The position numbers and the translations under genes were made by a program. Positions 4,101-26,400 of a stretch of DNA of 64,000 nucleotides are shown piece by piece; positions within the stretch are counted from its first letter, which is position 1; every line of letters starts with the position of its first letter. Below the pieces are notes generated by a model, which saw nothing but the letters and a program-made list of their open reading frames with translations, did no database searches and was not told the origin of the DNA. Source of the DNA: Argopecten irradians (Eukaryota > Mollusca > Bivalvia > Pectinida > Pectinidae); the NCBI RefSeq assembly GCF_041381155.1, contig NC_091145.1:41815697-41879696 (forward strand), in the 5' to 3' direction.

Positions 4101-7100
4101 CGGCATTCCCATGCAACCGAGGGCCAAAGATAAAGGGAGATCGCCCAATTCTGGCATCTTCATCACCCTCTGATTGGCATCGCTCGTGACAAGCGTGTGT
4201 GTGCGCCATCCTGCGTATAATCGAACGATACTACCAACAGGATGGTCTGCATTTTTACTGACGATCACCCTGGAAAAAATAAAAGATAACAAAATTGATT
4301 ACGGAAAATCAAATCTGGCCGCGAACCAGCTCAATAGATGATGTTTCGTAAAGTCTGGTAAAAAGTCTTGAAAATGTGAGCGATCACTTATTCTGAGAAG
4401 CAATTTACGTTCTTCGCCGTCCATAAACTGTCACATTTATCATGTAACGCTTTCAGTTGTTAACGATAAATCACACACATTTTAGACTTCTTAAGCAAAA
4501 GTTTCAGTGCACACAATTTTAATATTTGAAACCTATTTGTAATCTCTTTTGCCATTGGCCTGGTGATTTTTTCACTCATCACTTTATCTATGTTTCTGAT
4601 TAACTTGAACACAGATGAAAACAGAGGACACCAATTCTTTGACATTTGAGGATGTAATGAATATCCAGTGCATCCTCGCAAGTCAAAGGATGTCCCTGTC
4701 AAATGTGTCCTGGTTCAGCCTTACTTAGATATCTGTTCCCCAGGCATATGTTCAGTAATACCTAACTTAGATATCTGTTCCCCAGTCATGGATTCAGTAA
4801 TACCTTACTTAGATATCTGTTCCCCAGGCATGGCTTCAGTAATACCTTACTTAGATATCTGTTCTGCAGGCATGGGTTCAGTAATACCTTACTTAGATAT
4901 CTGTTCCCCAGTCATGGCTTTAGTAATACCTTACTTAGATATCTGTTCCCAAGGCATGGGTTCAGTAATACCTAACTTAGATATCTGTTCCCAAGGCATG
5001 GGTTCAGTAATACCTAATTTAGATATCTGTTCCTCAGGCATGGGTTCAGTAATACCTTACTTAGATATCAGTTTCCCAGGCATGGGTTCAGTAATACCTT
5101 ACTTAGATATCAGTTCCCCAGGCATGGGTTCAGTAATACCTTACTTAGATATCTGTTCTCCAGGCATGGGTTCAGTAATACCTTACTTAATTATCTGTTC
5201 CGCAGGCATGGGATCAGTAATACCTTACTTAGATATCTGTTCTCCAGGTATGGGTTCAGTAATACCTTACTTAGATATCTGTTCCCCAGGCATGGGTTCA
5301 GTAATACCTTACTTACATATCTGTTCCCCAGGCATGGGTTCAGTAATACCTGACTTAGATATCTGTTCTCCAGGCATGGGTTCAGTAATACCTTACTTAG
5401 ATGTCTGTTCCCCAGGCATGGATTCAGTAATACATTACTTAGATATCTGTTCACCAGGTAAGGGTTCAGTAATACCTTACTTAGATATCTGTTCTCCAGG
5501 CATGGGTTCAGTAATACCCTACTTAGATGTCTGTTCCCCAGTCATGGGTTCAGTAATACTTTACTTAGATATCTGTATTCCAGGCATGGGTTCAGTAATA
5601 CCTTACTTAGATATTTGTTCCCCAGTCATGGGTTCAGTTATACCTTACTTAGATATCTGTTCCCAAGGGATGGGTTCAGTAATACCTTACTTAGATATCT
5701 GTTCCCCAGGCATGGGTTCAGTAATACCACTACTGTACGTCAATACCATGAAAAAGCTATGAAATACACATGAACATGTCATGAAATTTCATTAATACCA
5801 TGAATCTGGCCATGAATTTTTTTTTTTTTCATGTGTACTCCTGAATTGTTTTAAATGCCATGAAAAATCAATATCATGGTCATGAATTAATTGAATATCC
5901 CATGACTATTGACAGTAATTCTATTAATAATCAATGAAATTATCATTGAAAGAAATCAGTCTAAGTTAATGGCCATGCATTTCTGTAATGATCATTTTTT
6001 CATGTGAGATTCATGGCCATTGATTTGTCAGTGATGACAATGAATTTTAGATTTGATGAAAGGTAGTATTTCATGGCCATTGATTTAATAATGATGACCA
6101 TGAATTAATAGAAGAGCTAAAGTGGAAAGTATTCCATGGCCATGTTTTTTAGGTTGATAATGAAAATAAAATAACTGATGATATATATGGCCATGAAAAT
6201 TTACAATTATGAAAATTAACCTTAATTAGAAATTAGCTAATTAAGATACTCACAAGTAATTTCATATCCTTGCCTTGATTAAGATGAGTTTTGTTTGTCA
6301 AAAGTCAATAATTAAAGTCAAATGACTCCCTTTTTTCTAAAACTTCTAAAACTAAGACACATTACTTATGTTTTCTATTATTAGAGTCATGTGACTTCTA
6401 TATTTTAATACTTGAGTCACATGACTTGAATATTCCCGCCTAAACAGAGGAAATCCAAAATGGCTGCTGTGTCTGTTGATGTATGACCAGGAACAGAATT
6501 TTCATGCTCACTAATCTGTTATACACTCTGTAGACAAGTGCTGAATTTAATCCTGAGTTCCTAAAGGTACAGTAAACAATTTTAGATAAGATGTGATTTC
6601 TTACAATTAATGAAATTGCATACACTGGGCGGCATTGTCAAATTCTCACAATCAACTACATGAAAGTGTGCATATTTATTTGCCATGTGCCTGCATGTTG
6701 AATGCTTTATATGTTTTGTTAATGCTAATTTAACTTTCAAACTGAAGATTGTTTTTTTCAATGTATTTCTTTATTTTAAAATACATTAAAGCAGAGAGTT
6801 TTTGATGACAGATTTAGGAAAACTGATCATATCATGCCGAATGTAATATTTGTACTTAATTCCTTTATCATAAAATTCATGGCCATGAATGATAAGTATG
6901 CATTCTAATGTCAATTTCATGAAAATCAGAACTGTGATTGTATTGGTTCCATGGCCATGAAAATGGTTAAATCACATTAGACAAGCAATTCTCATGGGTT
7001 GAAAATTCATGGCCATGGATTATGTTCCTTTTAAGGGGAATTTCATGGCCATGATGAAAGGATAGTTCTGATTCATTGGATAATCATGGGTATGAAAATC

Positions 7101-23400: not shown

Positions 23401-26400
23401 TCTATGGTATATTAAGTGTACGACTGATGAGGAAGAGATTTTCTATGGTTAATACTGTAAATCATATCCCCGGGTGGTGAACTATCGCGTAGTTCGCAGG
23501 ACATAAGAAATCGCGAGAATAAATCTCCGCGAGCATTCTTCAAATTCAGGTAGAAAAGTAAAGAAGTTCAGATCACGAAAACAAATTCCTGTGAACATGC
23601 TTCAAATACAGGCAAATAAGTAAAGAGGTCCGTGTCGCAAGAATAAATCTCCCAAAACAAGCATGAAATGCAGGTAGAGAAGTAGAGTCCAGATCGCGAA
23701 AACAAATCGCCGCGAACATGCTTCAAATACAGGTAGAGAAGTAAAGAAGTCCAGATCACGAAACCAAATCTCTGCGAGCATGCTTCAAATACAGGTAAAG
23801 AAGTAAAGAGGTCCAGATCGCGATAATAAATCTCCGCGAATAACTTCAAGTACAGAAAATGTCGTAAGCTAAAAAAAGGTCGTAAGCTATAAAAGCACCA
23901 AATTCAGTCGCCGCGAAAATAAGCTGACGGTAGTTAATGCTTTTTATCATCAACTTTTTGTATTCAAAATAAAGCATATCTATTTATAGTCGATTTGTAC
24001 CAGTTATTGTTAATATAAAGGCCTCAATACACAATTTTGTTGTATATTGTACATAGGTACATAAAAGATTAATTGTTTTGATATGTTATTAAAACAATTA
24101 ATGTTAGTAAGTAATTGTTAGCAGTTATGCTAGTAAGAACACTATTTTAATGAAGGAAAATATAATATTAGAAAGATATTGATACATTGTAACTACTTTC
24201 GTATAAAAATAAGTTATTTTTATGCTGCTTTTTGTTTATAGAGCATTACAAAGGAGTGTTGAAGTCCTACCAGACGGTATATGAACTGCCTGATCCACAG
24301 CTTCCAGTCAAATACCCACGCGTTCCTGGACACCGCGAGAAACACGATAATGCCTGGTGGGTATATCACTCTCCCCTTGTCACGAGGAACCAGGTGTTCA
24401 TAAGGAAACATATCCTTAATCCAGTTGGAATTATCCATTGTCTTGCCACTGTTAGGAAATTTGGGATAAAAATCATATTTTAAGACTGAAACCTATAATA
24501 ATTGTTCTTTCGATAACCAGTATTGATACTTATACCAACTCTGTCCTTCGCAAATCTTGAATTATGAATCTTATGCGCTTAACTACCGTCCATATGTTTG
24601 GAGTGTTCCAAAGTCTGGGTTTAGCAGGCTTGTTTCGTTCTAAGTACTGATAATGACAACACACCAGCAGTATGATCTGGTTTTTTAACATACCCTGTCC
24701 ATCTTTTAGTCAATCCGCATATTCAATATTGATGACCTAACAAAGAATTTGTCAACCTACCCTTTTAGGTACTGGCGATGTGACATTAAAGGAGCGGACA
24801 CCGGCCTACTGGCGGGTAAGACGGTGGCTGTTAAGGATTCGATCGCAGTGGCTGGTGTTCCCATGATGCACGGCACAAAGCTACTGGAAGGCTACACTCC
24901 CGAATTCGACGCCACAGTTGTAACCAGAGTACTTGATGCTGGTAGAATATTTTCCAATACCATTGCGTTTTCTATGACATATTGATAAAACGATACCATA
25001 AGGAAATAGAGACAGTTGGTTAGTCTAGCAGTGCTAAAATAATAGATTTTAGTATACTGTATAGACGGTTATCTTGGTGGATCAACATTTTCTCAATAAT
25101 ATTAAATTTACTTAAAATGATAAATAAACTACCAAATGACACTTGCAACCTTTGTAATGAAGAGAGAAAAAATTAAACATATCCAAAATGGGATAATAGT
25201 ACACAGTGGGTTTTTGATACATAGCATACAACTTCGAATTTAGACATAAAGAGCTTATTATTAGGCTTTGCAGATGTAGAAATAAAAGAAAACTTTATTC
25301 CAATCAACTTTCTTGTACTGTACTCATAATACTATGTATTTTTGATGTTAATAAAGAAGACAAACTTAAGCATAACCGCATTGAATACATACCTATTAAA
25401 ATGCACAAAATACATATAACAGTTGCCAAAAAACAAAACAAGATACAGGAATTTCTTTTAACATGGGATGATATCAAACAAACATTTCAATATTTCAAAC
25501 AGAATTAATAAATCTATCTTCTACAAATATATACCTACTGTATATATGATGATAAACTACATATTTTACATAGACTACATGTATATGCTGATTTGTTATT
25601 CTGTTACAGTTGTTAAATTTCAATTGTTTTCTAACTGTTAAATATAAATAGACTATGAAAATTTGAGTGATAAATGTCTATGTTTATGGGATGAATGTAA
25701 TGGGTCATTATATTACATGTATGTATGAGAGCCCTCCTTTGTGGAGACATTTGCTTATATTTTTGAAGGCTGACCCCAAGGCCCCAGCACTTGGCAGTCT
25801 TCAGATGTATACAATTTCTGGGGTATTAATTGTTTTGGTTTTTTTGTAGAAAAAGATAATAAATTTATCTATTTTTTATTTTTTCTTATACCAAATTGTC
25901 GTGACTATAACAGCATTTCCCAAAATCACGATAATTTCAACACCACCAAAATAACTGGTTATACGATTTTTTAAAGATCATATTATCATTAACGTTTATC
26001 AATAAAGGTAGGTACATGTATAATAAAACAACGATATCTTACCATTAAATATTTCAGGTAGATTTGATGAATACCTGTTGGTGTTATAGGTGGACGGATT
26101 GTTGGGAAAGCAGCCTGTGACGATATGTGTCTCAGCGGGGGGTCCTGGTCCTCGTCCACTGGTCCCATTGTCAACCCAAGGGACTCCACCAAAGATGCCG
26201 GGGGCTCAAGTTCTGGCTGTGTTTCCCTGGTAAAATACCATGTCATCATTATTACACTGAGATGTCGTTATTATAATCACCATGCTTAACTGTCAAATTA
26301 CAATAGTCAGAGAAATATTCACGTTGCAATCAAATACCTATGCACCTCTTGAATCCAAAATTGTTTGGAGAAAATATTTACATGGAGGCGTTTTCCTTAT

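Follow-up and report, generated by a model that had tools for sequence, protein, structure and literature searches.

Tandem repeats spanning splice donors of Argopecten irradians genes as probable mirage-type minisatellites

Tandem repeats that span exon–intron boundaries, termed 'mirages', are reported from the Adh3, globin, troponin C, and PGBD5 genes of amphioxus (PMC3087553, PMC3902484). The Adh3 mirages have units of 10–72 bp, both boundaries are affected, many units carry splice signals, and mirage units are homogenised except at the edge (PMC3087553; PMC3902484). Normal splicing by reverse transcription-polymerase chain reaction and instability in length, both between alleles and in the soma, have also been described (PMC3087553). 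Tandem duplication has further been linked to intron gain, in the Rogers model, in potato RdRp, and in the 24-bp repeats of fission yeast (PMC4974935), and boundary minisatellites can alter the structure of genes in young human paralogues (PMC2812944). Here we describe repeats of comparable anatomy in a stretch of 64 kb from the bivalve Argopecten irradians (contig NC_091145.1, hereafter C12, 41815697–41879696; referred to as the window), which belongs to an 846-Mb genome of 1508 contigs. Two neighbouring genes in the window carry arrays that begin inside an exon, cross the splice donor, and extend into the intron. The repeats themselves are beyond chance, and we put the probability that they are mirage-type minisatellites, grown from duplicated segments of exon–intron junctions, at roughly 80%.

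Donor-spanning arrays in two neighbouring genes

The first gene, on the minus strand, is a prostaglandin-reductase-1-like (PTGR1-like) gene of nine exons. The joined coding sequence (CDS) encodes 330 amino acids with the Pfam domains ADH_N_2 and ADH_zinc_N, and it matches 1v3t_A at 6e-105 with no gap at the exon 3/4 junction. Exon 3 (8147–8206, minus strand, as placed by the joined CDS) ends with ATATCTAA and is followed by the donor GTAAGG from position 8146 down. An array of 42-bp units, detected using Tandem Repeats Finder (TRF), starts 28 bases inside this exon. Its unit spans ATATCTAA|GTAAGG and runs into the intron, giving an exon-proximal part (7295–8174, minus strand) with 20 full units (20.9 copies by TRF) and a distal part (4719–5728, minus strand) with 24 full units (24.0 copies by TRF). 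With the exon copy counted among them, 41 of the 44 full units have the dinucleotide GT at the donor position, including 23 of the 24 in the distal part. Exon 4 (4099–4269, minus strand) follows with the acceptor ttttttccag; the intron that separates exons 3 and 4 is an ordinary one, the array lying at its donor side. The unit contains an in-frame TAA just past the donor. Since splicing at any later donor would give AAG TAA, hence a stop, directly past the exon, an intact protein results only with the first donor.

The second gene, on the plus strand, belongs to the amidase family (Pfam Amidase, 8.8e-57 with part of its exons joined). The exon at 15038–15159 (plus strand) ends with TTTCTATG, and the donor GTAAAT starts at 15160. 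An array of 50-bp units (15126–15872, plus strand; 14.9 copies and 97% matches by TRF) begins 34 bases before the end of the exon, and its unit spans TTTCTATG|GTAAAT into the intron. Among the 15 proximal units counted, 14 exceed 70% identity, and all 14 keep GT. A distal remnant of the array (23260–23459, plus strand; 4.2 copies and 86% matches by TRF) has GT in three of three units. The copy within the exon deviates from the array consensus at five of the 34 exon positions, against the 97% matches of the proximal array, as if the array had been homogenised except for the coding copy. Across the 42- and 50-bp arrays of both genes, the TRF matches range from 86 to 97%.

The observation in the initial annotation that an exon tail, a donor, and part of an intron were amplified outward in two divergent, unrelated genes was thereby confirmed. 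The genes are indeed neighbours, but the nearest ends of the arrays are 6.95 kb apart rather than about 6 kb. A similar intron part of 16 bases, which had been proposed for both, was not borne out as a shared motif: the PTGR1-like array ends with GTAAGGCTGAACC, so that TATTA is confined to the array copies of this gene, and the other clear donor arrays take in 12–14 intron bases with no sequence in common beyond the donor.

We propose the following course of events. A tandem duplication of a short segment straddling the junction, probably mediated by microhomology of a few bases, would have come first, and the array would then have expanded by slippage or unequal exchange. Candidate microhomologies, read by eye, are visible at the array ends: in the PTGR1-like gene AACC (ACAACCCATG in the exon, CTGAACCAGG in the intron), and in the amidase gene TAAATC (CTTAAATCTC in the exon, TGTAAATCAT in the intron). 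Growth is seen on the intron side only, presumably because selection on the exon keeps its coding copy intact. A comparable course is described for the mirages of amphioxus (PMC3087553, PMC3902484). Splicing would keep the exon-proximal donor, and the downstream copies may serve as intronic decoys or as rarely used alternatives.

Both arrays are interrupted by insertions. The one in the 42-bp array (5729–7294, no strand assigned) is 1566 bp long, rich in ATGGCCAT, and flanked on both sides by TACC, read by eye as a duplication. The one in the 50-bp array (15869–23260, minus strand) measures about 7.4 kb, has TG...CA ends and ATAC flanks, and presumably represents a long terminal repeat (LTR) element. 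In it, five LTR-like segments (each about 915 bp) alternate with four internal ones (each about 705 bp), giving a unit of about 1.62 kb. As the insertions are flanked by these 4-base duplications (TACC and ATAC, read by eye), which are not repeat sequence, they are younger than the arrays. On its minus strand, the tandemly multiplied LTR element shows a primer-binding-like stretch, recognised by eye. The ATGGCCAT word occurs nine times in the 1566-bp insertion and three times in the remaining window, and a cluster of the palindromic word pair CATGCGT/ACGCATG at 33460–33830 is similar in style. The amidase gene also contains a 91/56-bp array (26617–27181) that stops 15 bases short of a later exon's acceptor and includes no exon sequence.

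Arrays at other exon edges

Arrays that start inside an exon and span its donor recur at independent donors outside the window, with unrelated units. Across the PTGR1-like gene from the amidase gene lies a paralogue of the latter in inverted orientation (amidase B; L021–L022, C12:41800001–41816000), of which eight exon translations are 41–84% identical to the amidase gene. It carries two donor-spanning arrays with units of 53 and 42 bp, at donors other than that of the amidase gene. The 42-bp array, at exon 10, follows the exon end ...DMSLS and leads into derived arrays of 46/47 bp, which stop 43 bases before the next acceptor. At exon 6, all seven units listed read GAG|GTAAT. Neither the amidase B donor homologous to the array donor of the amidase gene nor the amidase gene donors homologous to the array donors of amidase B have arrays, which indicates independent births. 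Another case was found in a FAAH-like gene at C12:11.70 Mb, where a 26-bp unit comprises 14 exon and 12 intron bases (L023, 8718–9415); its exon scores 25.3 bits for Amidase, below the cut-off of 27 bits. The five clear donor cases therefore have units of 26, 42, 42, 50, and 53 bp, with 14–41 exon and 12–16 intron bases. Among the repeats touching the edges of sampled myosin and P450 exons (TRF score of at least 40, period of at least 12), a 21/34-bp repeat (L045) and a 13-bp repeat (L049) also span donors, a short donor-spanning repeat being found at a sampled myosin exon; the set is completed by the L077 array and the L060 duplication described below. Two arrays were not counted as donor cases: a 67-bp array of a QRSL1-like gene that contains CAG|GTGAGT and continues 1600 bases further upstream, so that no exon was reached, and an array at 13550–15083 of the contig, which begins at a donor-like GTATGT (15083) not tied to an established exon.

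Donors are not the sole anchor. At a P450 locus (L077, 1–323), an acceptor-spanning array of 59–61 bp forms the mirror image of the donor arrays, with a unit of about 37 intron and 24 exon bases repeated upstream of the exon. In addition, the last exon of an amidase (EKAFGGWVKP*; L026, 9856–10000) has its stop codon spanned by a 44-bp repeat, which is cut by the end of the stretch. The two arrays fit a process able to catch any edge of a coding sequence.

A single dispersed repeat family or transposon does not account for the arrays, since the 42-bp array gave three matches in the genome, all at this locus, in a search that skips very common words, and the units at other donors differ. A common intron motif of 16 bases is contradicted by the 12–14 intron bases of the other donor arrays. 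Intron gain by tandem duplication does not fit an array that sits in an ordinary intron between two exons, as in the PTGR1-like gene; the age of the intron was not compared across species.

Two further repeats lie near exon edges or within exons. A metallo-beta-lactamase-like gene (C12:41709644–41710813; L040, L039) has a 45-bp array 13 bases past a donor with no exon sequence, and a myosin exon (L060) contains an exonic tandem duplication of 118 bp, which, not being a multiple of three, would break the frame if both copies were kept.

Frequency of donors in tandem repeats

The initial annotation had suggested a shared mechanism, such as replication slippage linked to R-loops or U1 at 5′ splice sites, which an enrichment of tandem repeats at donors would support. 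We used word counts as a proxy for a scan of annotated donors. Each pattern was counted genome-wide on both strands, and the same pattern read backwards served as its single control; tandem donor words were defined as three copies, at gaps of 15–45 for CAGGTAAGT. Triples of CAGGTAAGT numbered 3100 (1781 + 1319 on the two strands), against 91 (32 + 59) for the reversed word, a 34-fold excess. The single words numbered 19,404 and 5,409, respectively, so that triples per single were 16.0% and 1.7% (9.5-fold). For AGGTRAG, the triples amounted to 35,098 (18,002 + 17,096) versus 8,078 (4,227 + 3,851), a 4.3-fold excess, and with 234,864 and 165,371 singles the ratios were 14.9% and 4.9% (3.1-fold). 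The agreement of the strand counts for AGGTRAG indicates that the excess is not due to a few freak arrays. The donor signal is thus found within tandem repeats far more often than the control word genome-wide, as had been predicted. These counts are per unit, so that long arrays weigh heavily; the rows listed for CAGGTAAGT triples derive from only four arrays, most of them from one, and the units of the four, for which letters were listed, are all different. The exon origin of a repeat is seen only in the cases described individually, and arrays may favour genic DNA.

The excess raises the possibility that a process acting during transcription at 5′ splice sites (R-loops, U1-bound nascent RNA, or pausing) raises the rate of tandem duplication there, which would add to the mirage interpretation rather than replace it. 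We regard this addition as possible but less likely than not. The same degree of reserve applies to its stronger form, namely that 5′ splice sites are a hotspot of minisatellite birth, such that at least a few per cent of the strong donors, and far fewer of the acceptors, carry arrays, and that a process linked to transcription or splicing drives both the birth of repeats and the growth of introns. The excess that persists after correction for single words speaks for such a process, and triples of the acceptor word TTTTNCAG showed no excess (5,548, or 3,396 + 2,152, versus 6,086, or 3,040 + 3,046, reversed). However, the latter comparison is a weak test of acceptors: with 260,297 singles versus 261,874 reversed, TTTTNCAG is no commoner than its own reversal and hence a poor acceptor marker. 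The single control word per pattern, the weight of long arrays, the possible preference of arrays for genic DNA, and the existence of the acceptor and stop-codon arrays also speak against a donor-specific process. The local repeats provide a weak test. Of the 90 TRF rows obtained from 259,696 bases, several of them pieces of one array, five contained AGGTRAG versus one with its reversal, and 13 contained GGTAAG versus three, but GGTAAG only tied with two words of the same composition for the top of 60, and AGGTAAGT was found in none versus one for its reversal.

Exon edges were also compared directly. The set comprised 86 exons, 35 from the 199,696-base contig around the window (C12:41700001–41899696), 40 sampled, and 11 from the first family searches, with six loci within the contig removed as duplicates. 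The sampled exons were 20 of the 82 listed myosin matches and 20 of the 100 listed for P450, each taken together with 300 flanking bases at either end, chosen by hand and mostly from rows without stops. The myosin, P450, and AMP-binding searches served to locate exons; of the 14 AMP-binding matches, most were long open frames, and none entered the sample. Splice sites were scored with consensus values, and a few edges are misplaced, in the case of one acceptor by 111 bases. Within the score limits lay 72 donors and 81 acceptors. The counts leave out the FAAH-like array, which is outside this set, and the L049 repeat, which is below the score used. Arrays started in the last 60 exon bases at five of the 72 donors, or at three without the two genes of the window, compared to about 1.6 expected from six array starts in the 220-base intron windows; two started in the first 60 intron bases (+13 and +37). 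At the acceptors, arrays ended in the first 60 exon bases at one of 81, compared to about 2.2 expected from eight, and in the last 60 intron bases at three, the L060 duplication, which reaches 143 bases into its exon, being uncounted. Taken alone, the donor excess in this sample is suggestive only.

In a genome rich in repeats, some arrays are bound to begin at donors by chance, and a pair of them in the same window might mean nothing. Around the window, 46 arrays of period at least 20 cover 30.7% of the 199,696 bases, and the three edge cases left without the window genes compare with about 1.6 expected. We nevertheless consider chance placement unlikely, in view of the genome-wide excess of donor words and the three further donor arrays outside the window, two in the paralogue and one in the FAAH-like gene. 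Elsewhere in the window, a 43-bp satellite occupies about 11 kb (45589–56772), with one diverged copy of its unit outside the array near 45040.

Three points weigh against mirage-type minisatellites as a full account. If duplication were purely neutral, one would expect neither the genome-wide surplus of donor words in tandem relative to the reversed words nor the lean towards donors over acceptors (5/72 versus 1/81, although the numbers are small and two of the five are the window genes), and the use of the first donor is presumed from the sequence.

Repeated donors and relation to known systems

A minisatellite at an exon end of the human interferon-induced gene 6-16 (IFI6) was reportedly described by Turri in 1995 as providing multiple splice donors, and its downstream repeat units are reported to be used as donors in three mRNA species. 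The donors repeated here could likewise have been retained by selection, for U1 binding or as alternative donors. The donor is kept in 41 of 44 units of the PTGR1-like array and in 17 of 17 amidase units above 70% identity, and in amidase B exon 10 the reading frame runs on through 14 further units of 14 codons each until it meets a stop, so that later donors could add 14-residue repeats to the protein. Against this, the donor columns (−3 to +6) are no better conserved than the other columns of the unit. The values for donor versus exon columns were 0.917 versus 0.966 and 0.963 versus 0.935 in the PTGR1-like gene, 0.992 versus 0.979 in the proximal amidase array and 0.926 versus 0.989 in its three distal units, and 0.968 versus 0.994 in amidase B exon 10. 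This pattern, as in neutral intron sequence, fits the mirage interpretation, and we see no sign in these columns that the extra donors are maintained by selection. Moreover, the later donors of the PTGR1-like gene would introduce a stop codon, and the 50- and 53-bp units would cause a frameshift. We therefore consider a selected multi-donor device very improbable. A scan of the 64-kb window against Rfam gave no match reaching the gathering score.

The interpretation in the initial annotation is partly supported. Re-integration of splicing products, offered there as one source of the arrays, is unlikely because the units hold exon and intron contiguously and unspliced. Nor do the arrays form a new class without a named feature type, since boundary-spanning tandem repeats are the mirages of amphioxus (PMC3087553, PMC3902484), and a human multi-donor minisatellite is also on record. 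We file the finding as mirages in another animal, in which they are apparently common. No bivalve case was found in the literature searched, where subscription papers are mostly outside coverage, so a prior report is possible. In the literature examined, mirages are known from only a few genes, all of lancelets. A distantly related animal that seems rich in them offers a natural setting in which to study whether repeats are seeded by splice sites, how cells settle on one donor when dozens of nearly equal copies are present, and by what route introns grow longer. Given the excess of donor words in tandem, an annotated genome would allow a direct test for a hotspot.

The arrays described here share with amphioxus mirages a unit that spans the exon–intron boundary, in five clear donor cases and one acceptor case, and the donor units of 26, 42, 42, 50, and 53 bp lie within the 10–72 bp of Adh3. 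They differ in occurring in what we take to be a different animal phylum, in the much higher copy number of several arrays, and in the genome-wide over-representation of tandem donor words, known here from a single assembly. In the cases of intron gain, a segment crossing or carrying splice signals was likewise duplicated in tandem, but a new intron was created, mostly with few copies (PMC4974935), whereas here a presumably old intron was lengthened. The human paralogue cases concern changes of exon and intron length in segmental duplications with few units per locus (PMC2812944). As for the human 6-16 gene, which also has an exon-end minisatellite offering multiple donors, its later donors are reported to be used, whereas those of the PTGR1-like gene, if used, would break the protein.

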